A stretch of 33,461 nucleotides of DNA from Bacteroidales bacterium. GTDB lineage: Bacteria > Bacteroidota > Bacteroidia > Bacteroidales > F082. The first letter of the stretch is position 1. Each line of letters starts with the position of its first letter. The stretch lies in NCBI GenBank assembly GCA_017645245.1, contig JAGCPG010000138.1, forward strand, positions 1 through 33,461. Direction: 5' to 3'. Both the position numbers and the translations under genes were made by a program. Below the pieces are notes generated by a model. That model did not search any database and had not been told where the DNA came from. It saw only the letters and a list, made by a program, of their open reading frames with translations. Positions 6,286 through 28,640 of the stretch are shown in pieces.

Positions 6286-8553
6286 ATGTTTGAAATTGTA
6301 CAAAAGAAGACTTTTGCGGCGGAAACCTACCTGATGGACGTTTACGCCCCTAGAATTGCCCAATCTGCTTTGCCAGGTCAATTCCTTATCATTAAAATGG
6401 AAGAAAACTCGGAACGTATCCCTTTGACAATCAGTGATTATCAACGTGTTAAGGGTACAGTAACCATTGTTTTCAAAGCTATCGGTGAATCCACCAAAAA
6501 GATGGCGGAATATCAAGTTGGCGACAGCTTCCACGATGTGGTGGGACCCCTCGGAAAGCCTTCAGAGTTTGCTACTATGACGGCTGAAGAGCTCCGCAAG
6601 CGTTCTTTTGTGTTCATCGGCGGTGGTGTGGGTATCGCTCCCATTTTCCCACAGGTGAAATGGTTGTATGAACATGGTGCCGTAGCCGACTGTATTATCG
6701 GCGCCCGCACTAAAGACCTTTTGATTTACGAAAAGGAACTTTCGGAATACTGCCACCTTTATGTGACTTCCGACGACGGCTCCACCGGCCGCAAGGGGTT
6801 GGTGACCGACGTGTTGCGCCAACTGGTGGCCAGCGGAAAGGTCTATGACGAAGCGGTAGCCATCGGACCGATGATCATGATGAAGTTCGCCACCAAGACC
6901 TGTGAGGAGTTGGGCATCCGCTGCACCATCTCGCTCAATAGCATTATGGTCGACGGTACCGGCATGTGCGGCGCCTGCCGCGTGAGCATTGCCGGCAAGA
7001 CTAAGTTCACCTGTATTGACGGTCCGGAGTTCCTTGGCAAGGATGTGGACTTCGACGAGGCCATGAAACGTCAGGCCATGTATAACAACGTGGTTACCCG
7101 CAAGCAGCTTGTTGCCGAAGAGAAAGCCGAAGGCCATGAGTGCCACATTGGCGGCATCTCCGAAGAGACATTCGATAAGAAACATAGAGTACCCGTTCCA
7201 GAACAAAAACCTGAGATCCGTGCCCACAACTTCGACGAGGTGTGCCTGGGCTATTCGCCCGACATGGCCATCATGGAGGCGCAACGTTGCCTCAACTGCA
7301 AGGATCCGCAATGTGTGAAACACTGCCCAGTCAACGTCAACATCCCAGGGTTCATCGCCCGTGTTGCCAAAGGCGACTTCGAGGGTGCCGCTGGTGTCAT
7401 CAGTTGCGACTCGGCACTGCCTGCCGTCTGCGGTCGTGTGTGCCCTCAGGAAACCCAATGCGAAGGCAGCTGCATCATGGGCAAGAAGTTCGAACCTATT
7501 GCCATCGGCAAGCTGGAACGCTTCGTGGGCGATTATGCCATCGAGCATGATCTGCACTTTGACAGCCAAAGCATCCCGAACGGCCATAAGGTGGCTATCA
7601 TCGGTAGCGGTCCCTCAGGTTTGACCTGTGCCAAAGACCTGCTCTCGATGGGTTACGACGTCACCATCTTCGAGGCCTTGCATGAGTTGGGCGGCGTGTT
7701 GATGTATGGCATTCCGTCGTTCCGTCTGCCGAAAGATACTGTGGTGAAGAAAGAGGTGGAGAGCGTCCGCCGTCTGGGTGCCAAATTTGAGAAAGACGTG
7801 GTCATTGGCCGCACCATCACCATCGACGAATTGATGCACCGCGAGGGCTTTGAGGCCGTGTTTGTTGGCTCTGGCGCTGGCTTCCCGATGATGCTCAACG
7901 TCCCAGGAGAGAACCTTTGTGGTGTGGTCTCCGCCAATGAGTTCCTGACTAGAAACAACCTGCTGTTCGCTTATAAGGAAGGCTTCGAGACCCCGAATTT
8001 TGTGGGTAAGAAAGTCGCCGTCGTAGGCGGTGGCAACGTGGCCATGGATGCCGCCCGTACCGCATTGCGTCTGGGCTCTGAGGTGCATATCGTGTATCGT
8101 CGTTCCGAGGCTGAGCTCCCCGCCCGTGTAGAGGAGGTGCATCACGCCAAGGAAGAGGGCGTGCAGTTCGACCTGCTCACTGCTCCCGTAGAGGTGCTGG
8201 GCGACGAGAATGGATGGGTAAAAGGTTTCAAGTGCGTGAAATGCGAGCTTGGTGAGCCCGATGCCTCAGGCCGTCGCAGCCCGGTGCCGGTCGAAGGATC
8301 GGAGTTCATCCTCGATGTCGATATGATCATCATGGCTTTGGGTACCTCACCGAACCCGCTCATCGGCAGCACCACTCGCAACCTCGACTTGACCAAGAAA
8401 GGCTGCATCGTGGCCGACGAGGTGGGTGCCACTTCACGTCCGGGCATCTTCGCCGGCGGTGACGCCGTCAGTGGCGCCGCCACGGTGATCCTCGCCATGG
8501 GCGCCGGCAAGAAAGCCGCGAAGGCGATTGATGAATACATTAGGAATAATTGA
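6286..8553 (+). CDS. nfnAB: Fused NfnAB: NADH-dependent reduced ferredoxin:NADP+ oxidoreductase
   Basis: The 755-residue protein fuses a PyrK/NfnA-like flavoprotein (residues 1 to ~285) to a GltD/NfnB-like flavoprotein (~310-755). The first half has the FAD motif RIPLTIS, the NAD-site loop IGGGVGIAP at 111-119, and D223/C228/C231/C243 in GTGMCGACR...C, the Asp-plus-three-Cys [2Fe-2S] pattern known for NfnA. The second half has two four-Cys sets (C335, C338, C343, C347 and C382, C386, C392, C396) for [4Fe-4S] clusters, an FAD motif GSGPSG at 440-445, an NADPH motif GGGNVA and the closing FAGGDAV segment. The complex is cytoplasmic and couples NADH, NADPH and ferredoxin pools by flavin-based electron bifurcation. 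Automated pipelines often label such fusions dihydroorotate dehydrogenase B subunit/glutamate synthase; the residues favour NfnAB. Confidence 0.9.
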   Translation: MFEIVQKKTFAAETYLMDVYAPRIAQSALPGQFLIIKMEENSERIPLTISDYQRVKGTVTIVFKAIGESTKKMAEYQVGDSFHDVVGPLGKPSEFATMTAEELRKRSFVFIGGGVGIAPIFPQVKWLYEHGAVADCIIGARTKDLLIYEKELSEYCHLYVTSDDGSTGRKGLVTDVLRQLVASGKVYDEAVAIGPMIMMKFATKTCEELGIRCTISLNSIMVDGTGMCGACRVSIAGKTKFTCIDGPEFLGKDVDFDEAMKRQAMYNNVVTRKQLVAEEKAEGHECHIGGISEETFDKKHRVPVPEQKPEIRAHNFDEVCLGYSPDMAIMEAQRCLNCKDPQCVKHCPVNVNIPGFIARVAKGDFEGAAGVISCDSALPAVCGRVCPQETQCEGSCIMGKKFEPIAIGKLERFVGDYAIEHDLHFDSQSIPNGHKVAIIGSGPSGLTCAKDLLSMGYDVTIFEALHELGGVLMYGIPSFRLPKDTVVKKEVESVRRLGAKFEKDVVIGRTITIDELMHREGFEAVFVGSGAGFPMMLNVPGENLCGVVSANEFLTRNNLLFAYKEGFETPNFVGKKVAVVGGGNVAMDAARTALRLGSEVHIVYRRSEAELPARVEEVHHAKEEGVQFDLLTAPVEVLGDENGWVKGFKCVKCELGEPDASGRRSPVPVEGSEFILDVDMIIMALGTSPNPLIGSTTRNLDLTKKGCIVADEVGATSRPGIFAGGDAVSGAATVILAMGAGKKAAKAIDEYIRNN

Positions 8554-20053: not shown

Positions 20054-22111
20054 TTACCATCCGCCGCCACCGGCGCTCACCGTGGAGTACATCGAATTGG
20101 CTGTAAAGGTGGTGGATTGACCACCTGAATAGGTGACGTTGCCCGTGTAATAGCCGTGCCAAGAGGTGCCGCCACTGATGGTGCCGCCGTATTTGACGGT
20201 ATAGGTCTGGCTCATCTGTAACTGGGGATCGGTGAAGAGCATCACGAGACTGTTACCGCCGCCAGGACCGCCGCCGCCAGAGAGAGTAGGACATTGATAG
20301 GTGCAGATCACCGTGCCATCCGACTTGAGAATCTGAATGGCATAGCCCGACTGAGTGTTGATCTTCACACTCGGTTGGGTACAGACGCTTGATGTTGGGT
20401 TGCTGGTGCCACCGCCGGTGCCGATGGAGGTGCCTCCCGTGATCTTAAACTGGTTGTTGTCGCAGTCGAAGCCCTCCTCAGGCATACTCGATCCGTTGGA
20501 GATGTTGAAGCCGCCGTTGAGTTCCATGGTGCCGTTGCTGTCAGTGCCGTCGTTGGCGTCGCTATGGACGTAATAGATGCCGCCGTTGATGACGAGTCTC
20601 GAAGAGGCGTTGACGGCATCGTCCTTCTTGGAATAGGCCTCGATGTTGCCTCCGTTGATGGTCAGGATGGATTTGCTTTCGATGCACTCGCCGCCTTCGT
20701 TCTGGGTCTGGAGACAGTTGACGGTGATGTTGCCACTGTTGATAGTCAAACTGCCTTGCGCCTTGATGGCCTTGGGGTTGGCGTATTCGCCGCCTCCGCC
20801 TGGAGGCCAACCGCCGCCGCCACCTGAAGTCACGGTGATGCGCTCGCCGGTGGTGGTGACGTTAAGGGTCAGATCGTCGTTGTTGGCGTTCTCCATGCCG
20901 ATCTTCAGGGTGCCGCCTGCGGTGATGCCCTTGCCGCCCGTTCCGGTGCTGTTGAGGTTGAAGGTGCCGGCCAGGAGTTCCATGTTGCCGTCGCATTTCA
21001 AGCAGGACGAGGTGTAGGAGTCCTTGGTGTTGCCGCTCACCGTGTAAGCCGCACCGTTGCCGTGGGTCTCGATGGTGAAGTTGCCGCCGCTGATGAACAT
21101 ATTGCCGTCGGCGCTGATGCTCTTGCCCCCTTGGTTACTGGTGGGTAGGGTGATGTTGAAGGTGCCTCCCGAGATGTTGATGTCGGTGTCGCTCTTGATG
21201 GCGGTGCAGTACGAGGGCACGTTTTGTCCGTTGATTTGCTCCAGGATGGTGCTTCCCGAGGCCACCACGGTGATGTCGCCGCCGCTGATGTCGATGGCGT
21301 TGTCGGCCTTGATGCCTTTCGACTGGTCGTTGGTAACGGTGATGTTTAGGCTGCCGCCGTGCATGACGAAATCGTCCGTATGGATGCCGTCGTTGATGGC
21401 GTCAGGGACAGTGATTGTGCCTGAGTTGACGGTCAGCTGTCCCTTCACCTTAATGGCATGTTCAACGAATCCCGTCACGGTGAGGGAGCCGTTGCCTTGG
21501 ATGGTCAGGTCGTTGTTGCTCAGAAGGGCGGCCTTCTTGTCGCTCTCAGTGCCGTCCTGAACGGTATTGCTTGTGCCGTCGGCAAGGACGATGACGATAC
21601 CTGAGTCGCAGGTTAGGTCCATGGCTTTGCCGGTGGGGTTGGTAAGGCTGACGCCGTTCATCACGATGGTGGGCGTGGTGGTGCTCTCAACCTCGAAACG
21701 TCCGGGGTTAGCGGTACCCGTCAGGCAATAGGTGACGAGCGAGGTGCTCATGGCTGTGACGGAGACCTTGGCTCCATTCACGGTCACGGCGACTTCCCAC
21801 GAAGGGTAGGGGTTGGTCACCGTGGCGGTAGTGCCATTGTAGTTGATGAACACGGTATCGCCTGGTTGCGGCGCCTCTTGCCAGACGAAGGTGATGCTGT
21901 CGAAGGCTGTCACGGGGAACGAGCTGGTGCCGCTGAGGGTGTTGATGTCGAGCGAGACGGGGTCGTTGCCTTGGAACGACATGCTGTTGACCGAGTTCAC
22001 GCTGTTTTGGTAGACGACCTGTCCCGACTGATGCAGGTTGAGGTAGTATTCTTGGGCCTGAAGGCTGATGCAGCCAAGCACGAGTGCCATAAGGATCGCG
22101 ATCTTTCTCAT
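20054..22111 (-). CDS. Cthe_2159/DUF4353-type carbohydrate-binding beta-helix protein
   Basis: The protein has 685 residues with a signal peptide MRKIAILMALVLGCISLQAQ. An N-terminal beta domain is followed by the diagnostic core of the Cthe_2159 family: VTYCLTGTANPGRFEV, IVMNGVSLTNPTGKAMDL, GIVIVLADGTSNTVQDG, LTIQGNGSLTV, then repeated (I/L)xISGG(T/D)(F/I)(N/T)I and LTINSGNITV turns of a beta-helix (about residues 150-560). Known members bind calcium and plant polysaccharide (cellulose or acidic sugars). Gly-rich inserts (GGGGGWPPGGGGE and a C-terminal SAGGGGW) replace the usual sorting tail. It overlaps the upstream T9SS-tail gene by 4 bases (ATGA), so the pair is translationally coupled. 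A role in binding dietary or host glycans at the surface is inferred. Confidence 0.85.
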   Translation of the reverse strand: MRKIAILMALVLGCISLQAQEYYLNLHQSGQVVYQNSVNSVNSMSFQGNDPVSLDINTLSGTSSFPVTAFDSITFVWQEAPQPGDTVFINYNGTTATVTNPYPSWEVAVTVNGAKVSVTAMSTSLVTYCLTGTANPGRFEVESTTTPTIVMNGVSLTNPTGKAMDLTCDSGIVIVLADGTSNTVQDGTESDKKAALLSNNDLTIQGNGSLTVTGFVEHAIKVKGQLTVNSGTITVPDAINDGIHTDDFVMHGGSLNITVTNDQSKGIKADNAIDISGGDITVVASGSTILEQINGQNVPSYCTAIKSDTDINISGGTFNITLPTSNQGGKSISADGNMFISGGNFTIETHGNGAAYTVSGNTKDSYTSSCLKCDGNMELLAGTFNLNSTGTGGKGITAGGTLKIGMENANNDDLTLNVTTTGERITVTSGGGGGWPPGGGGEYANPKAIKAQGSLTINSGNITVNCLQTQNEGGECIESKSILTINGGNIEAYSKKDDAVNASSRLVINGGIYYVHSDANDGTDSNGTMELNGGFNISNGSSMPEEGFDCDNNQFKITGGTSIGTGGGTSNPTSSVCTQPSVKINTQSGYAIQILKSDGTVICTYQCPTLSGGGGPGGGNSLVMLFTDPQLQMSQTYTVKYGGTISGGTSWHGYYTGNVTYSGGQSTTFTANSMYSTVSAGGGGW

Positions 22112-22596
22112 AGCTTCATCAGTTTTAGGGTTTGACTATCAAGTTGAAGCAGATACATGCCGCTGGACAGCCCGCTCAGGTCGACAACTTGGCCTTCGGT
22201 GGCTTCGAACGACTTCATCAAACGACCGTCGAGGGCGTAGATGCGGGCAGTGCCGGGGCCTGACAGGTTGCGGATGATGAAGTGGTCGTATGACGGGTTG
22301 GGAAGGATCTGCAGTTGCGATGCCGCGTTTTCTTGAATGTCAGTCAACTCGGCGCAGACGATTTTGCGGATGTTGGCAAGGGCAAACGTCGTTGTAGTGC
22401 CATTGCTGTCGTCGATGACAAGGCTTTCGCCATTGTCGAAATGGAGTTGGCTTTGGTCGGACAGTTGGATGGTCTGCTCCTCACCGTTGGTCAAGGTGAG
22501 GATGAGGTTGACGCTGGTGCCTTGGGCGGTCGCGAATGATGCGATTCCAACAAGGAAAGCGATGGTTATCAATAATTTAGAAAACAAATTCCTCAT
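22108..22596 (-). CDS. Small T9SS-tailed secreted protein
   Basis: The start is ATG 22596 (MRNLFSKLLITIAFLVGIASFATAQ), because the in-frame start at 22629 lies within the -7 box at 22627-22634. The 162-residue product has a signal peptide, a ~70-residue beta-rich domain (LTNGEEQTIQLSDQSQLHF...TTTTFALANIRKI) and a sorting tail (LQILPNPSYDHF, ARIYALDGRLM, LSSGMYLLQL...LKLMKL). The N-terminal block resembles the short domain that opens the following gene (YYLNLHQSGQVVYQNSVNSVNSMSF). It is first in a two-gene operon with the beta-helix protein. It may be a surface partner of that protein; no enzymatic motif is visible. Confidence 0.8.
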   Translation of the reverse strand: MRNLFSKLLITIAFLVGIASFATAQGTSVNLILTLTNGEEQTIQLSDQSQLHFDNGESLVIDDSNGTTTTFALANIRKIVCAELTDIQENAASQLQILPNPSYDHFIIRNLSGPGTARIYALDGRLMKSFEATEGQVVDLSGLSSGMYLLQLDSQTLKLMKL

Positions 22597-22626
22597 GAGG
22601 TTTTGGATTTTAAGAGTTAAAACTTT

Positions 22627-22634
22627 CAAAGATA
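22627..22634 (-). promoter_or_regulatory. -7 box for the 22596-20054 operon
   Basis: Minus-strand TATCTTTG, 30 bases upstream of the ATG at 22596. Confidence 0.65.
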
Positions 22635-22729
22635 CGAATAGTTTTTTAGAAACTGAAGAATTTTAGATTTTTTAACTAAGGATCGATGGTTTTCGTATTT
22701 GAAAAATAGGTTTTTCTTTGGAATTGTCC

Positions 22730-22737
22730 TATTTTTG
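22730..22737 (+). promoter_or_regulatory. -7 box for the steroid-reductase-like operon
   Basis: TATTTTTG lies 21 bases before ATG 22759. No strict TTG at -33. It diverges from the promoter at 22627-22634. Confidence 0.6.
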
Positions 22738-22758
22738 CAATTTCCTTCGAAAACGGCA

Positions 22759-23529
22759 ATGATAACGCTTAACCAATACAATATCTTCCTCATCATCATG
22801 GTTTGTGTGGCCGTGGTGGTGTTTGTGAGCCTCTTCTTTGTGGACGCGGGCTACGGCAAGTTTTACGACAAAAAATGGGGTCCGGCCATTAATAATAAGG
22901 TAGGTTGGGTGCTGATGGAAGCTCCTGTTTTCGTCGCCATGCTGGTGCTGTGGCTGTGTTCCGACCGCCGCGACGACCTGGTGCGGTTGGCTTTTCTGTT
23001 TTTGTTCGAGTTGCATTACTTCCAGCGTTCGTTTGTGTTTCCCTTCCGCCTCCGCGGAAAGAGCGTGATGCCATTCTCCATCATCGTAATGGGCGTGACG
23101 TTCAACGTGTTGAACGCCTTGATGCAGGGCGGCTGGATCTTTTATCTTTCGCCCAACGACTATTATGGACGCGAGTGGCTGACCACGCCGAAGTTCATCG
23201 CTGGTTTCTTGGTCTTCATTATTGGGATGTACATCAACATCCAGTCGGACGACATCATCCGCAACCTACGAAAGGAGGGGGATTCCAGGCATTATTTGCC
23301 CAAAGACGGCATGTTCCGCTATGTTACTTCGGCCAATTACTTCGGTGAGCTGGTGGAGTGGATCGGTTTTGCGATTTTGACATGGTCGTGGTCGGGAGCG
23401 GTGTTCGCCCTGTGGACTTTCGGCAACTTGGCGCCAAGGGCTTCAAGGATCTATGATCGATATAAGCAAGAATTTGGTAATCAATTAAATACGAAAAAGA
23501 CAAAACGGATGATCCCGTTTGTTTGGTAA
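22759..23529 (+). CDS. Steroid 5-alpha-reductase (SRD5A)-family membrane reductase
   Basis: ATG 22759 is chosen because the promoter box ends at 22737; the product has 256 residues and several hydrophobic helices. It aligns in full with animal SRD5A1/2: E54 in VLMEAPVF, HYFQR (Y87), GMYINIQSDDIIRNLRK (N160, D164), DGMFRYVTSANYFGELVEWIGFA (N193, E197), R227, Y235 and the terminal MIPFVW matching the animal IPFIF ending. These correspond, from memory of the human SRD5A2 structure, to NADPH- and substrate-contacting residues. The family reduces the delta4 double bond of 3-keto steroids with NADPH to the 5-alpha product. It is the first gene of an operon with an OYE-family enzyme 1 base downstream. 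Steroid or bile-acid substrate is inferred; an endogenous isoprenoid lipid is the alternative. Confidence 0.88.
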   Translation: MITLNQYNIFLIIMVCVAVVVFVSLFFVDAGYGKFYDKKWGPAINNKVGWVLMEAPVFVAMLVLWLCSDRRDDLVRLAFLFLFELHYFQRSFVFPFRLRGKSVMPFSIIVMGVTFNVLNALMQGGWIFYLSPNDYYGREWLTTPKFIAGFLVFIIGMYINIQSDDIIRNLRKEGDSRHYLPKDGMFRYVTSANYFGELVEWIGFAILTWSWSGAVFALWTFGNLAPRASRIYDRYKQEFGNQLNTKKTKRMIPFVW

Positions 23530-23530
23530 C

Positions 23531-24763
23531 ATGATGGAATCAAAGATATTTACGTCTTGTCAGATCGGTCCTGTCACCCTGCGCAACCGAGTGATCCGCT
23601 CTGCGGCGTTCGAGAACATGGCCTACGGCAACCGGCCTTCGGAGGATTTGTTCAACTACCATGTGGCCGTGGCCCGCGGCGGTGTGGGTATGACCACGGT
23701 AGCTTATGCGGCGGTGAGTCAGTCGGGATTGTCGTTCGATGGTCAATTGTGGATGCGTGAGGAGATCATTCCTGAGCTGAAACGGCTCACCGACGCTGTC
23801 CATGCCGAGGGCGCCAAGGCTTCCATCCAGCTGGGCCACTGCGGCAACATGACGCATCGCTCCACCTGCGGCTGCAAGCCAGTGGGCGCTTCCAACGGTT
23901 TTAACCTCTATTCCCCGACTTTTGTGCGCAAACTCCGCAAAGAGGAGATTTACGACCTGGTGAAGGATTTCGGCCATGCCGTGGAGCTGGCTCGCCAAGC
24001 GGGATTCGACTGCGTGGAGATCCATGCGGGTCACGGCTACTTGATTAGCCAGTTCCTGTCGCCATACACCAATCATCGCCATGATGAGTTTGGTGGCAGC
24101 CTCGACAACCGGATGCGTTTCATGCGCATGGTCATCGAAGAGGTGATGCATGTGGCGGGCGACGACATGGGTGTGGTGGTCAAGGTGAATATGCACGACG
24201 GATTCCGCCGCGGCATGCAGCAGGAGGAGTGCATCAAGGTGGCACAGGAGTTGGAACGGCTTGGCGTGCATGCCTTGGTGCTGACGGCGGGCTTCGTGAG
24301 CAAGGCTCCCATGGAGGTGATGCGCGGCGCCATGCCCTTGAAGACCATGACCTATTATATGGACTTGAAAAAGTTTTGGTGGCTGAAAGCCGGTGTGTTG
24401 CTGTTCGGCCGCCTGATGGTGCCTACGGTGCCTTATAGTGAAGGCTATTTCCTTGAGGATGCCAAGGCGTTTCGGGCCAACCTGAAGCTACCGTTGATCT
24501 ACGTGGGCGGCCTGATCTCCAAGGAGAAGATGGAGGAGGTGCTCGACGCGGGCTTCATGGGCTTGCAGGTGGCGCGCGCCTTGGTGCACGACACCGAGTT
24601 TGTGAACAAACTCCAGCGTGGCGAGATCACTCGCAGCGGCTGCAAGCACTCCAACTACTGCATCGGCAGGATGTACACCTTAGAGATGAAGTGTCACCAC
24701 TGCGTGAAAAACCTGCCGAAGAAACTGCAAAAAGAGATTGACGAAGCGGAAAGGACATTGTGA
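23531..24763 (+). CDS. Old Yellow Enzyme-family NADH:flavin oxidoreductase (5-beta-reductase-like)
   Basis: ATG 23531 follows the previous stop by one base; ATG 23534 is also possible. The 410-residue TIM-barrel shows FMN- and substrate-site motifs: RNRVIRSAAFENM, GGVGMTTVAYA, IQLGHCG (100-104), IHAGHGYLISQFLSPYTNHRHDEFGGSLDNRMRF (H165/H168) and GGLISKEK. The C-terminus has a Cys cluster (CKHSNYC...KCHHC). BaiCD/BaiH and 2,4-dienoyl-CoA reductases have a similar barrel but carry a further NAD(P)-binding half (total ~650 residues), which is absent here. The family reduces alpha,beta-unsaturated ketones; bile-acid members reduce delta4 or delta6 bonds of 3-keto steroids. Placement between an SRD5A homologue and an SDR supports a steroid ene-reductase role, most simply giving the 5-beta isomer. 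Cytoplasmic. Confidence 0.82.
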   Translation: MMESKIFTSCQIGPVTLRNRVIRSAAFENMAYGNRPSEDLFNYHVAVARGGVGMTTVAYAAVSQSGLSFDGQLWMREEIIPELKRLTDAVHAEGAKASIQLGHCGNMTHRSTCGCKPVGASNGFNLYSPTFVRKLRKEEIYDLVKDFGHAVELARQAGFDCVEIHAGHGYLISQFLSPYTNHRHDEFGGSLDNRMRFMRMVIEEVMHVAGDDMGVVVKVNMHDGFRRGMQQEECIKVAQELERLGVHALVLTAGFVSKAPMEVMRGAMPLKTMTYYMDLKKFWWLKAGVLLFGRLMVPTVPYSEGYFLEDAKAFRANLKLPLIYVGGLISKEKMEEVLDAGFMGLQVARALVHDTEFVNKLQRGEITRSGCKHSNYCIGRMYTLEMKCHHCVKNLPKKLQKEIDEAERTL

Positions 24764-25527
24764 TGAGAGCGTTGGTCACGGGCGGAAGCTCAGGCATGGG
24801 ACTGGAATACGCCAGACAGCTGGCGGCCAAAGGCTATGACTTGTTGTTGGTGAGCAACCAGCAGAAAGAGCTATCCAAAGCTGTAGAAGATCTTTCACAA
24901 GTCTTTAACGTCAACGTGATTGGCCATTATCAGGATTTGGCCACGGAAACTGCCGCCGAAGAGCTTTTCTCGTTCTGTCAAGCGGAAAACCTCCAGATCG
25001 ACATCCTGATCAACAACGCGGGCATGTTCTTTTTCGAGGAGCTGACCACCGACAATGCAGACAAAGCCCTCACGATGATGCGATTGCATATCTTCACTAC
25101 GACCCGGCTCTGCGTCTTGTTTGGCGAGGAGATGAAGAAGCGAGGCAGTGGCTATATCCTCAACATGTCGTCGATGGCGGCCAAGCTGCCGTGCCCGGGC
25201 ATCACCGTGTATTCCGCCACCAAGGCTTATCTGAAGAGTTTCAGCAAATCCTTGTATTTCGAGATGCGACCCTACGGCGTCGGCGTGACCACGGTGTGTC
25301 CCGCAGCCATCGCCACGCCGCTTTACAAGCTGAAGCCATCGTTGTTGAAACTGGGTGTGAAGATCGGCTTGATCGGTACCCCGCAATGGCTGGTGCGCCG
25401 CGCTTTGAGAGGCATGTTCCATAAACGCCGTGTGGTCAAGCCAGGCTTAATGAACAGATATCTTCCTCCTTTGATCGCCATATTGCCAAAAAAACTCGTT
25501 GACAGGTTATGGAAAAAATACAAGTAA
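24763..25527 (+). CDS. Short-chain dehydrogenase/reductase (hydroxysteroid-dehydrogenase-like)
   Basis: ATG 24763 overlaps the previous TGA stop by one base. The 254-residue protein has the Rossmann cofactor motif TGGSSGMG (6-13), NNAG (84-87), Ser136/137 in NMSSMAA and the catalytic YSATK (Y150, K154). The position of the usual catalytic Asn before the TTTR helix is His (RLHIF, H109), an unusual change. The C-terminal third is basic and hydrophobic (RGMFHKRRVVKPGLMNRYLPPLIAILPKKLVDRLWKKYK), as in 17-beta-HSD/3-ketosphinganine-reductase-like SDRs that sit at membranes. In context it would oxidise or reduce a 3-keto/3-hydroxy group of the compound handled by the two preceding reductases. Position and stereochemistry cannot be read from sequence. 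Confidence 0.85.
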   Translation: MRALVTGGSSGMGLEYARQLAAKGYDLLLVSNQQKELSKAVEDLSQVFNVNVIGHYQDLATETAAEELFSFCQAENLQIDILINNAGMFFFEELTTDNADKALTMMRLHIFTTTRLCVLFGEEMKKRGSGYILNMSSMAAKLPCPGITVYSATKAYLKSFSKSLYFEMRPYGVGVTTVCPAAIATPLYKLKPSLLKLGVKIGLIGTPQWLVRRALRGMFHKRRVVKPGLMNRYLPPLIAILPKKLVDRLWKKYK

Positions 25528-26453
25528 TATTGCTCCTTTTGGCTTCACAGCTGGCTTTCGGACAGCGCTACGAGAAAGTGCCGTTTGGCGGCTTCGAGCA
25601 GTGGGCGGTGCGCTATATCACTGAATCAAAGGTGATTGGCGGTAAGGAAAAGACGGTGTACATGGTCGGCCCGACGGATACCATTCGGGGCAATGTGGCT
25701 TATTCCTACGAAAACACAATTTGGTCGTCCTCGAATGTCTATGCCAAGGTGATGGGCGTGACCAAGACCAGCACCAACGTCACGCCTGCCAAAGGTCCGA
25801 CGGGCAAATGCGCCAAACTGGTCACCCAAATGGCGTCATGCAAGGTGGCGGGACTCCTTAATATCAATGTGTTGGCGGCGGGTTCCATCTTCTGGGGGGA
25901 GATCCAGGAACCCGTCTCAGGCATCAGCAATCCCTATTCCGTCATGAGCTGGGGCATCCCTTTCACCAAACGGCCAAAGGCGTTGCTGTTCCACTATAAG
26001 GCGTATATTCCGAACAATGGCAAACTCATCAAGAGTACCACGTTCCATGCCTCCGAGTTTGAGGGTTATGATCCGGCAGAGGTCGTCTTTGTATTGCAAA
26101 ACCGATGGGAGGACGCCGAAGGCAATATCCACGCCAAGCGGGTGGGGACTGCGATATGCCAGATTGATCAATCAGTGCCGCATTGGGTGATGGACTGTAG
26201 GATTCCGGTCATTTACGGCGATGCAAGAAAAGACAAGGATTACCGGCCTTTCATGGATCTGATTACAGGGAGTAAGAATCTGTATGCCTTCAACAGCAAA
26301 GGCAAGAAAAAGCTGGTTTTGGAAGAAGGCTGGGCTGATCCTGATACCCCTGTCACCCATGCAATTTTATGGTTTAGCTCGGGTAGCTGCGGTGCTTTCA
26401 TCGGCGCCTTGGGCAACGTGCTTTGGGTGGATGAGGTGAGGCTGGAGTATTGA
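25509..26453 (+). CDS. Secreted PCMD-domain protein
   Basis: ATG 25509 lies 19 bases inside the SDR reading frame, so translation is coupled. The 314-residue product begins with a signal peptide (MEKIQVILLLLASQLAFGQ). The rest matches the PCMD (putative carbohydrate metabolism) domain of Bacteroidota: GFEQWA, WSSSNVYAKVMGV, PAKGPTGKCAKLVTQ, AGSIFWGEI, RPKALLFHYKAYIP, an acidic VLQNRWEDAEG strand and the closing SSGSCGAFIGALGNVLWVDEVRLEY. PCMD proteins are thought to be beta-sandwich, possibly glycan-binding, exported proteins; no enzyme activity is established. Its location as the fourth gene of a steroid-reductase-like operon is unexpected and may mean surface capture of the substrate or its glyco-conjugate. 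Confidence 0.78.
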   Translation: MEKIQVILLLLASQLAFGQRYEKVPFGGFEQWAVRYITESKVIGGKEKTVYMVGPTDTIRGNVAYSYENTIWSSSNVYAKVMGVTKTSTNVTPAKGPTGKCAKLVTQMASCKVAGLLNINVLAAGSIFWGEIQEPVSGISNPYSVMSWGIPFTKRPKALLFHYKAYIPNNGKLIKSTTFHASEFEGYDPAEVVFVLQNRWEDAEGNIHAKRVGTAICQIDQSVPHWVMDCRIPVIYGDARKDKDYRPFMDLITGSKNLYAFNSKGKKKLVLEEGWADPDTPVTHAILWFSSGSCGAFIGALGNVLWVDEVRLEY

Positions 26454-26484: not shown

Positions 26485-26492
26485 TATCTTTG
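26485..26492 (+). promoter_or_regulatory. -7 box for the DUF5606-pyrK-pyrD operon
   Basis: TATCTTTG, 26 bases before ATG 26519. It separates this operon from the preceding four-gene unit. Confidence 0.65.
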
Positions 26493-26518
26493 CCCGTTTT
26501 TTGAAAAATACGAATCAA

Positions 26519-26959
26519 ATGGATCTTACAAAAATTATCTCAATAGCCGGCAGACAGGGACTGTTCCAGATCAAGTCCCAAGCCGTTGGCAGAATCATTG
26601 TTGAATCGGTGCTTGACGGAAAGTGCACCCCAGCCTTCGCTCACGACCGCATGAGCTCGCTCGAGGAGATCTCCATCTTCTCGGTTGATGAGGACAAGCC
26701 GCTTAAGGAAGTGTTCATGAGCATCCACGAAAAGATGGGTGACCAGGTTAACTTCGATTTCAAGAAGGCCTCGAATGACGAACTTCGTGCCAAGTTCCTT
26801 GAGGTGATGCCCGACTACGACCAAGAAGCCGTGTATCCTTCCGACATGAGGAAGGTGTTTGCCTGGTACCAGATGCTGGTGAACAAAAACCTTCTTGACT
26901 TCACGCCTGAGACCAAGGAAGAGGCCGCCGAAGAGAAGGCTGAAACCCCAGCGGAATGA
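26519..26959 (+). CDS. DUF5606 family protein
   Basis: ATG 26519 is chosen since the -7 box ends at 26492; the product has 146 residues. MDLTKIISIAGRQGLFQIKSQAVGRIIVESVLDGKC, AHDRMSSLEEISIFSVDEDKPLKEVF and MPDYDQEAVYPSDMRKVFAWYQMLV match the small, highly conserved Bacteroidota DUF5606 family as I know it. The tail is acidic ([16 protein letters not shown]). It is cytoplasmic with no known biochemical role. It overlaps pyrK by ATGA (26956-26959), so it is translationally coupled to pyrimidine synthesis here. Confidence 0.85.
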   Translation: MDLTKIISIAGRQGLFQIKSQAVGRIIVESVLDGKCTPAFAHDRMSSLEEISIFSVDEDKPLKEVFMSIHEKMGDQVNFDFKKASNDELRAKFLEVMPDYDQEAVYPSDMRKVFAWYQMLVNKNLLDFTPETKEEAAEEKAETPAE

Positions 26960-27717
26960 AACAAATCGCTGATTTCAAGCTCGTTGAGAAAAGGGACTTC
27001 GGCCGCTCCGTGCTACTGAGGCTCCGCTGCGACAAACCCTTACCTGACATCGCCCCCGGACAGTTCGTCCAGGTGCGTGTCGACGACTCTCCATCCACTT
27101 ACCTGCGCCGTCCCATCTCCATCCATGACGTGGACTTTGACAAGCATGAGCTTAGCCTGTTAGTCCAGATTGTGGGGGAGGGGACCAAACATTTGGCCGC
27201 CGTCAACGAAGGTGAGACGGTCAATTTGGTGCTACCTTTAGGCAACGGCTACACGCTTCCCGAGAAGGATGAAAAGGTCCTGCTTGTGGGCGGTGGCATT
27301 GGCATCGCGCCGTTGTTTTATCTTGCCAAAGGCATGGCTGCAAAGGGCGTGAAACCAGTGTTTTTGCTGGGGGGCAAGACGGCCTCTGATCTTGTGATGC
27401 TGGATGCGTATGGTCAACTTGGTGCGACGCATGTCACCACGGAAGACGGTTCGCTGGGCGAGAAAGGCTTGGTGACGGGTCATTCCGTTTGGAAAGAAGG
27501 TGGGTTCGACAAGATCTATGTCTGTGGTCCCAAACGGATGATGATGGCGGTGGCTGACCTTGCCAAGGCAAATGACACTTGGTGTGAGGTCTCGTTGGAA
27601 CATTTGATGGCCTGCGGTCTCGGCGCCTGCCTCTGCTGCGTGGAGGACACCGTCGAGGGGCATCTCTGCGTCTGCAAGGAAGGTCCGGTCTTTAACACAA
27701 GGAGGTTGAAATGGTGA
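26956..27717 (+). CDS. pyrK: Dihydroorotate dehydrogenase B electron-transfer subunit
   Basis: The 253-residue protein has the ferredoxin-reductase-like FAD motif [11 protein letters not shown], the NAD-site loop [24 protein letters not shown], and a C-terminal [2Fe-2S] site with Cys residues in [13 protein letters not shown]...VCKEGPVF. It passes electrons from dihydroorotate oxidation in PyrD to NAD+, in the cytoplasm, in step four of UMP synthesis. It overlaps DUF5606 by 4 bases and pyrD by 7 bases. Its N-terminal fold is homologous to the first half of NfnAB at 6286, but length, partner gene and cluster pattern make PyrK the clear call. Confidence 0.95.
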
Positions 27718-28640
27718 ACATGATGGTTGACTTGGGTCGCGGCTTGGTGCTTCGCAACCCCGTGATGACGGCTTCGGGAACCTTCGGCTATGGCGAGGAA
27801 TATACCGATTTCGTGGATCTGTCGCAGCTGGGCGGCATCATCGTGAAAGGCACCACCTTGTATCCCCGTGAGGGCAACCCTTATCCCCGCATGGCCGAGA
27901 CGCCCTCGGGAATGTTGAATTGCGTGGGCCTGCAAAACAAAGGCGTACAGTACTTTATCGATAAGATCTATCCTCGAATTAAGGACTTCGATACCAACGT
28001 GCTGCTGAACCTTTCGGGCTCGTGTTTGGACGATTATGTTCGCGGTGCGGAGATGGTCGATGCTTTGGACAAGATTCCGGCCATTGAGCTGAATGTGTCA
28101 TGTCCCAATGTGAAACAGGGCGGCATGGCCTTTGGTGTGACCACGACGGGTATTTCGCAGGTGGTCTCTGAGGTGCGCAAAGTCTATCACAAGCACCTGA
28201 TGGTGAAGCTGTCGCCCAATGTGACCAACATCGCTGAGATCGCAATGGCGGCTGAGACTGCCGGAGCCGACTCGGTCTCGTTGATCAACACCTTGATGGG
28301 CATGGCCATCGACGCGGAGCGGCGCAAGCCGAAGCTCTCCGTGATCACCGGCGGCTTGTCAGGCGCCTGCGTGAAGCCCGTGGCCTTGCGTATGGTGTGG
28401 CAGGTGGCTAAGGCGGTGAAGATCCCGGTAGTGGGTCTGGGCGGCATCAGCAATGCCACCGACGCCGTGGAATTTATGCTGGCTGGCGCTTCCGCCATCG
28501 AGATCGGCACAGCCAATTTCATTGAACCTGCTATTTCAACGAAGGTGGCAGATGGGATGAAAGACTACTGCGAACGGCATGGATTTGATAAGGTATCGGA
28601 TCTAAAGGGAGCTCTTCAAATAACTCCTGATTTTAAATAG
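27711..28640 (+). CDS. pyrD: Dihydroorotate dehydrogenase B catalytic subunit
   Basis: The 309-residue FMN TIM-barrel protein starts at ATG 27711, within the end of pyrK; ATG 27720 is an alternative. It has [49 protein letters not shown], the active-site loop [13 protein letters not shown] with the catalytic Cys of class 1 enzymes, and the FMN phosphate segments [10 protein letters not shown] and [26 protein letters not shown]. Together with PyrK it forms the class 1B NAD-dependent enzyme converting dihydroorotate to orotate. Confidence 0.95.

Follow-up and report, generated by a model that had tools for sequence, protein, structure and literature searches.

A four-gene cassette joining an SRD5A-type 5-alpha-reductase to a short Old Yellow Enzyme in Bacteroidales: a candidate module for A/B-ring remodelling of 3-oxo-steroids

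The window analysed here, the whole 33,461-nucleotide stretch of contig JAGCPG010000138.1 (assembly GCA_017645245.1) from a Bacteroidales bacterium, carries a compact cassette of four genes on its + strand at positions 22759-26453. The first gene (22759..23529, 256 amino acids) encodes an SRD5A-type membrane steroid 5-alpha-reductase (PF02544, Steroid_dh; 143.8 bits against a cut-off of 22.6, E-value 5e-42) and is followed by the gene for a short Old Yellow Enzyme-type flavoenzyme (OYE; 23531..24763, 410 amino acids; PF00724, Oxidored_FMN; 193.2 bits, E-value 9.9e-57), a putative 3-oxo-5-beta-steroid reductase/delta4-dehydrogenase. The third gene product is a short-chain dehydrogenase/reductase (SDR; 24763..25527, 254 amino acids; PF00106, adh_short; 142.8 bits, E-value 1.2e-41), a putative 3-hydroxysteroid dehydrogenase, and the fourth is a predicted exported PCMD-domain protein (25509..26453, 314 amino acids; PF13201; 83.5 bits against a cut-off of 28, E-value 2.4e-23). 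The open reading frame coordinates and the Pfam matches, all of them well beyond their cut-offs, agree with the arrangement described in a first-pass annotation of this DNA: a 1-base gap between SRD5A and OYE, a 1-base overlap between OYE and SDR, and a 19-base overlap between SDR and PCMD.

A Bacteroidota-type -7 promoter box (TATTTTTGC, 22730..22738, + strand) lies 20 bases 5' of the SRD5A start. It fits the pattern TANNTTTGY, which we take to be the Bacteroidota -7 consensus and which has 14 matches in the window compared to 7.5 expected by chance. The nearest further match on either strand starts at 26485, past the PCMD gene; this second box (TATCTTTGC, 26485..26493, + strand) precedes the genes DUF5606-pyrK-pyrD and marks the probable operon end. 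As judged from these two boxes, the four genes likely constitute one transcription unit. Sigma-70-type promoters (2 in the window, 3.4 expected) were dropped in favour of the Bacteroidota pattern. A longer SRD5A form with a TTG start at 22699 was considered unlikely, because the box at 22730-22738 falls downstream of that TTG and because alignments with full-length homologues begin at residue 1-7 of the protein read from the ATG.

The best relatives of the SRD5A protein in the PDB were the steroid 5-alpha-reductase 7c83 (170 bits) and human SRD5A2 (7bw1, 123.5 bits), compared to 35.8 bits for an enoyl-CoA reductase in a comparison that included no SRD5A3. The first-pass annotation had stated that the active-site residues of SRD5A2 are kept, and this was borne out: all eight cited residues pair with identical residues of the human protein in the 7bw1 alignment, and all eight are invariant in the window protein and 101 distinct loci (one duplicate locus, L110 = L175, was removed from all residue counts). 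For the human set we assume the numbering E57, Y91, N160, D164, N193, E197, R227 and Y235 as well as the catalytic and NADPH roles of these residues; chain numbers in 7bw1 presumably run 4 above the usual human numbering.

Polyprenol and enoyl-CoA reductases are also among the homologues of SRD5A, and the window protein gave weak extra Pfam matches to DUF1295 and PEMT, as might be seen if the cassette reduced polyprenols or enoyl lipids of the cell's own metabolism instead of acting on steroids. The first-pass annotation had itself named closest characterised relatives acting on polyprenol or fatty lipids as an outcome that would refute its reading. The bit scores place the window protein much nearer to the steroid enzymes than to the enoyl-CoA reductase. 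Moreover, SRD5A is patchily distributed, being found in 21 of the 36 genomes of the genus and absent from genomes with an estimated completeness of 98-100% (G009, G011, G015 and G025), and is therefore not a housekeeping gene. A housekeeping lipid role was rejected on both counts, and we consider endogenous lipid metabolism altogether a very improbable function of the cassette.

The OYE aligns with E. coli FadH over FadH residues 4-371 of 672 only, and thus has no FAD/NAD(P)H half; its electrons would be supplied either by NAD(P)H binding directly at the flavin mononucleotide (FMN) or by a second protein. His165, His168 and Tyr170 align with His164, His167 and Tyr169 of YqjM, and in classical OYEs this His-His-Tyr set holds the enone carbonyl. 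Cys371, Cys377 and Cys388 are invariant where present, and His373 occurs in 95 of 98 proteins. Cys371 and Cys377 pair with two of the FadH cysteines that we take to form the 4Fe-4S motif, Cys388 lies beside a different FadH cysteine, and the four-cysteine spacing is not kept. The NCBIfam BaiCD model NF041087 gave 199.9 bits against a cut-off of 825, in two stretches of which the better covered positions 3-257 of 642. An assignment as BaiCD was rejected on the basis of this score, the missing FAD/NAD(P)H half and the missing four-cysteine motif (checked on FadH, not on BaiCD itself), and the term 'BaiCD-like' used in the first-pass annotation proved too loose. Relative to FadH the protein also has an insertion of about 35 residues, within residues 255-305, which includes the hydrophobic stretch KKFWWLKAGVLLFGRLM; the hydropathy of this insertion is only moderate, and we make no claim for it as a membrane anchor.

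The SDR has the classical TGxxxGxG motif, and its Ser137, Tyr150 and Lys154 were found in 85 of 85 distinct proteins. The asparagine of the catalytic tetrad is replaced by His109 in 84 of the 85 cassette proteins, a position that aligns with Asn of 6zdz, 6y4d and 4bmv; such a histidine is unusual among classical SDRs. Whether the enzyme is 3-alpha or 3-beta specific is not readable from the sequence. The PCMD protein has a hydrophobic N-terminus with no cysteine close to it, and gave a weak phmmer match to BT2081-type structures over residues 71-165.

Conservation of the cassette was assessed in 80 relative loci, the best 80 of at least 578 found. The OYE gene follows SRD5A on the same strand in all 80, in 77 of them within 60 bases and with a widest gap of 1870 bases, an arrangement that is not due to chance. 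An SDR gene belongs to the same-strand cassette in 72 loci (58 downstream, 14 upstream), and five of the eight loci that show no SDR lie on short stretches. PCMD is present in 26 loci, in four of them on the opposite strand. It is absent from the other 54 of the 80. The first-pass annotation had proposed such a synteny comparison across Bacteroidales. Of the first 20 loci taken from Bacteroidales genomes, 17 had OYE adjoining SRD5A. Gene-distance correlations of 0.84-0.96, which had no control gene, and ratios of non-synonymous to synonymous change (dN/dS; low dN, with dS mostly saturated) were not used.

The pairing was also surveyed at the genome level, by searching 295 Bacteroidales genomes (at least 90% completeness requested) with SRD5A, OYE and PCMD; the two surveys overlap in part and are not independent. 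SRD5A matches formed a close clade of at least 48% identity (40 genomes) and a distant clade of 33-41% (30 genomes), and matches weaker than 1e-36 (20 of 90 matching genomes) were counted as no SRD5A. OYE matches were accepted at E-values up to 1e-60, and PCMD matches weaker than 1e-40 (10 of 57 genomes) were left out of the subfamily. OYE was found in 39 of the 40 close-clade genomes, 14 of the 30 distant-clade genomes and 2 of the 225 others, and in the sole close-clade genome without a counted OYE (G036) a piece of the gene sits where a contig ends. In 34 of the 40 close-clade genomes the two genes stand side by side within 600 bases. A subset of 20 close-clade loci had the pair in 20 of 20, but by coincidence it contains none of the genomes with separated genes, and the full count is therefore given here. 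As 17 family labels are represented in the close clade, the pairing is not confined to a single family. Within the genus, OYE occurred in 21 of 21 SRD5A-positive and 2 of 15 SRD5A-negative genomes. Among the 295 genomes, one counted as SRD5A-negative, G115, contains a 47%-identical SRD5A fragment with a stop, which may be a relic.

The distant clade presented another picture. Nine of its 14 OYE matches were 47-62% identical, and in three of the 14 genomes the OYE gene lies about 9 kb from SRD5A on the same contig; no operon-type pairing was seen there, with OYE in none of the 20 stretches fetched (from 20 of the 30 genomes). The distant-clade loci L151-L170 come from larger-genome Bacteroidales, with SRD5A identities of 35-41% and no OYE next door.

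On this basis we consider it fairly probable that the cassette is an A/B-ring remodelling module for 3-oxo-steroids, taking 5-beta substrates through a delta4 intermediate to 5-alpha products that are then changed at C3, with the PCMD protein as an accessory. The OYE would interconvert 3-oxo-5-beta-steroids and delta4-3-oxo-steroids by oxidation or reduction at C4-C5, presumably running towards delta4 in this pathway. The membrane-bound SRD5A would use NADPH to reduce this delta4 compound, yielding the flat 5-alpha (allo) form; NADPH-dependent delta4 reduction to 5-alpha is the chemistry of the SRD5A family. The SDR would reduce or oxidise the C3 ketone, leading to 3-hydroxy-5-alpha products, perhaps of the iso-allo type. 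The exported PCMD protein would assist on the envelope side, most likely by binding the substrate or a sugar conjugate of it. The near-obligate association of OYE with SRD5A favours, we infer, a delta4 intermediate shared between the two enzymes.

Several observations weigh against this interpretation. The paired genes lie apart in 5 of the 40 close-clade genomes and in contig pieces in 1 of the 40, three of the first 20 loci (L038, L040 and L041) have no OYE next to SRD5A, and 5 of the 14 distant-clade OYE matches reach only 39-41% identity. An OYE of 68-69% identity also occurs with no SRD5A match in two genomes of the genus, G006 (estimated to be 62% complete) and G025 (98%), and in these the OYE may act alone. 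Fisher values overstate the significance of the association, because the genomes share ancestry and are not independent. Finally, the tie to the characterised enzymes of P. merdae, O. laneus and B. dorei is indirect, the nearest being Butyricimonas (Odoribacteraceae) with identities of 63%, 63% and 45% for SRD5A, OYE and SDR, respectively.

The occurrence of OYE without SRD5A in G006 and G025 would also suit a scheme in which the two enzymes are parallel terminal reductases. External delta4-3-ketosteroids would then be turned into 5-beta products by OYE and into 5-alpha products by SRD5A, to dispose of electrons or to detoxify the steroids, and no isomerisation would take place; a review gives known cases of delta4-3-ketosteroid reduction for both enzyme types (PMC12789469). 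We find this unlikely, since a presence of OYE in nearly all close-clade genomes and in hardly any genome lacking SRD5A would be better explained by a shared intermediate. In addition, several Bacteroidota strains are reported in a review to convert 5-beta 3-oxolithocholic acid (3-oxoLCA) or isolithocholic acid (isoLCA) to isoallolithocholic acid (isoalloLCA) (PMC10382948), for which an oxidative 5-beta step is needed.

The remodelling of 3-oxo-steroids leaves a choice of substrates. The first-pass annotation had named bile acids among them, an idea that the present analysis does not support. No member of the CBAH (bile salt hydrolase) family was matched in the genome that contains the window, which is 91% complete. 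Full-length CBAH was found in 2 of the 36 genus genomes, one of the 21 with SRD5A and one of the 15 without, and partial matches above the cut-off occurred in seven more, five with SRD5A and two without. A CBAH-SRD5A link was rejected, as there is no clear association even with the partial matches included (6 of 21 compared to 3 of 15). By record title, 17 of the 80 loci come from rumen, reticulum or omasum and 4 from abomasum, and a further 13 bear RUG names, which we take to denote rumen genome sets, so that 34 carry pre-duodenal names; 8 are from duodenum, cecum, colon, rectum or faeces, and 38 are without a gut site. In dairy cows, conjugated bile acids are reported from the duodenum and jejunum and unconjugated ones from the large intestine, in a study of six regions from duodenum to rectum, the rumen not among them (PMC9750977).

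A bile-acid specialist, whose operon would yield isoallo-bile acids like its counterpart in human gut Bacteroidota and would likewise have been selected for acting on bile acids, is therefore a possibility that we hold to be doubtful. The three-gene core is the same as in the published isoallo-bile-acid cluster, and the 8 titles from bile-containing sites, like the 38 that name no site, leave room for it; against it stand the lack of a CBAH match in the window's genome, the absence of a CBAH link within the genus and the many relatives from upstream of bile entry. That forestomach organisms keep the cassette points to other 3-oxo-steroids, with bile acids washed back or present in traces as a possible substrate there. 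The native substrate in the window's lineage is probably broader than bile acids. A more far-reaching version, in which the cassette is a general steroid A/B-ring isomerase beyond bile acids, acts on plant or host 3-oxo-steroids in the forestomach and has in the PCMD protein an envelope receptor of its own that takes steroids or their glycosides, must be called speculative, and no such four-part uptake-and-conversion unit was found in the literature search.

The first-pass annotation regarded the coupled PCMD gene as an unexpected exported component. The two genes are physically linked, the SDR/PCMD overlap being exactly 19 bases in 21 of the 22 same-strand pairs (in the exception, L066, the genes are 823 bases apart), and the PCMD gene is probably translationally coupled to SDR. 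PCMD is no mere oddity, as the gene is tied to the module statistically as well as physically: the PCMD subfamily was found in 30 of the 40 close-clade, none of the 30 distant-clade and 17 of the 225 other genomes, and within the genus in 15 of 21 SRD5A-positive and none of the 15 SRD5A-negative genomes. Because of the recurring overlap and the genus distribution, PCMD appears to be a genuine partner of the module.

It could also be argued that PCMD is an unrelated passenger whose overlap with SDR is incidental. The gene is missing from most relative loci, some of them cut by contig ends, and BT2081 and several of its paralogues are encoded in polysaccharide-utilisation loci, according to a report whose main text makes no mention of 'bile' (PMC2954218). 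The absence of PCMD from the five closest relatives (L042-L046) and the 17 genomes with the subfamily and no SRD5A also tell against a partnership. In three of the 15 PCMD-positive genus genomes the match was only 43-45% identical and away from the cassette. Nevertheless, the identical overlap is kept even where the SDR-PCMD pair precedes SRD5A (L074, L084, L086 and L089), PCMD adjoins SRD5A on the other strand in Barnesiella and similar loci (L099, L111 and L121), and the window's genome has no second PCMD match. With the distribution across clades and within the genus, these points make a passenger improbable. In one genome, G030, another copy of PCMD (68%) is found at contig C10:71565-73662 next to an OYE match that covers residues 292-410 only, perhaps the remnant of a second cassette.

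Around the cassette, DUF5606-pyrK-pyrD (26519-28640, with the DUF5606 open reading frame at 26519-26959) lies downstream behind its own -7 box, and its synteny is kept in many relatives. On the other side, a gene for a Cthe_2159 carbohydrate-binding-domain protein (20054-22111, - strand) overlaps a small gene (22108-22629, - strand) by 4 bases, and the same pair is found 5' of the cassette in L023, L024, L026 and L043-L046 (L024 and L046 being the same contig). Further away, positions 6286-8553 encode a single protein with domains for DHODB Fe-S binding, Fer4_20 and pyridine-nucleotide oxidoreductase, which resembles a glutamate synthase small subunit and has no relation to the cassette.

The survey indicates that close-clade SRD5A and the short OYE are nearly inseparable across Bacteroidales, including many species from sites ahead of bile entry. 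Isoallo-steroids affect immune cells of the host (PMC11271093) as well as Gram-positive bacteria (PMC10382948), and it therefore matters in which host animals and gut regions the module occurs. By naming an exported partner gene, the survey also turns the native steroid and a dedicated envelope protein into directly testable questions. A literature search that reached few subscription papers found no description of the cassette in rumen Bacteroidales and no link of any PCMD protein to steroid genes, nor did it meet the breadth of the SRD5A-OYE pairing (including separated genes), the forestomach hosts or the PCMD partner.

Compared to known systems, the SRD5A-OYE-SDR core is an already described kind of cluster. 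According to the review PMC10382948, P. merdae has its 5-alpha-reductase gene in a cluster with those for a predicted 3-beta-hydroxysteroid dehydrogenase and an NADH:flavin oxidoreductase, disruption of the reductase gene leads to a loss of allolithocholic acid derivatives, and Bacteroidota strains convert 3-oxo-delta4-LCA to isoalloLCA; the trio of 5-alpha-reductase, 5-beta-reductase and 3-beta-hydroxysteroid dehydrogenase is also cited in PMC12697870 and PMC11271093. The isoalloLCA cluster of P. merdae, O. laneus and B. dorei has the same three enzyme classes, with an SRD5A-type 5-alpha-reductase, and a homologous trio is present in Butyricimonas. The delta4-3-oxosteroid module proposed in the first-pass annotation survives in this shared core, though not in its BaiCD label and bile-acid substrate. 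What sets the window apart from the isoalloLCA cluster are its forestomach-rich relatives, the lack of a bile salt hydrolase family match and the overlapping PCMD gene. With 7c83 and 7bw1, the window SRD5A shares homology across nearly its entire length and the eight residues aligned with the human ones, but it is placed in an operon with OYE and SDR. With the BaiCD/FadH class, the window OYE can be aligned across the FMN barrel at the N-terminus and into the first part of the iron-sulphur region; it differs in its three cysteines and near-invariant His373, its insertion and its YqjM-like His-His-Tyr set. Similarly, the window PCMD protein has the Pfam PCMD domain and apparent export signal of the BT2081-type proteins (PDB 3hbz, 4het and 4jrl), with approximately 54 fewer residues ahead of the matched stretch, and in contrast to BT2081 with its polysaccharide-utilisation context, its subfamily is tied to SRD5A genomes.

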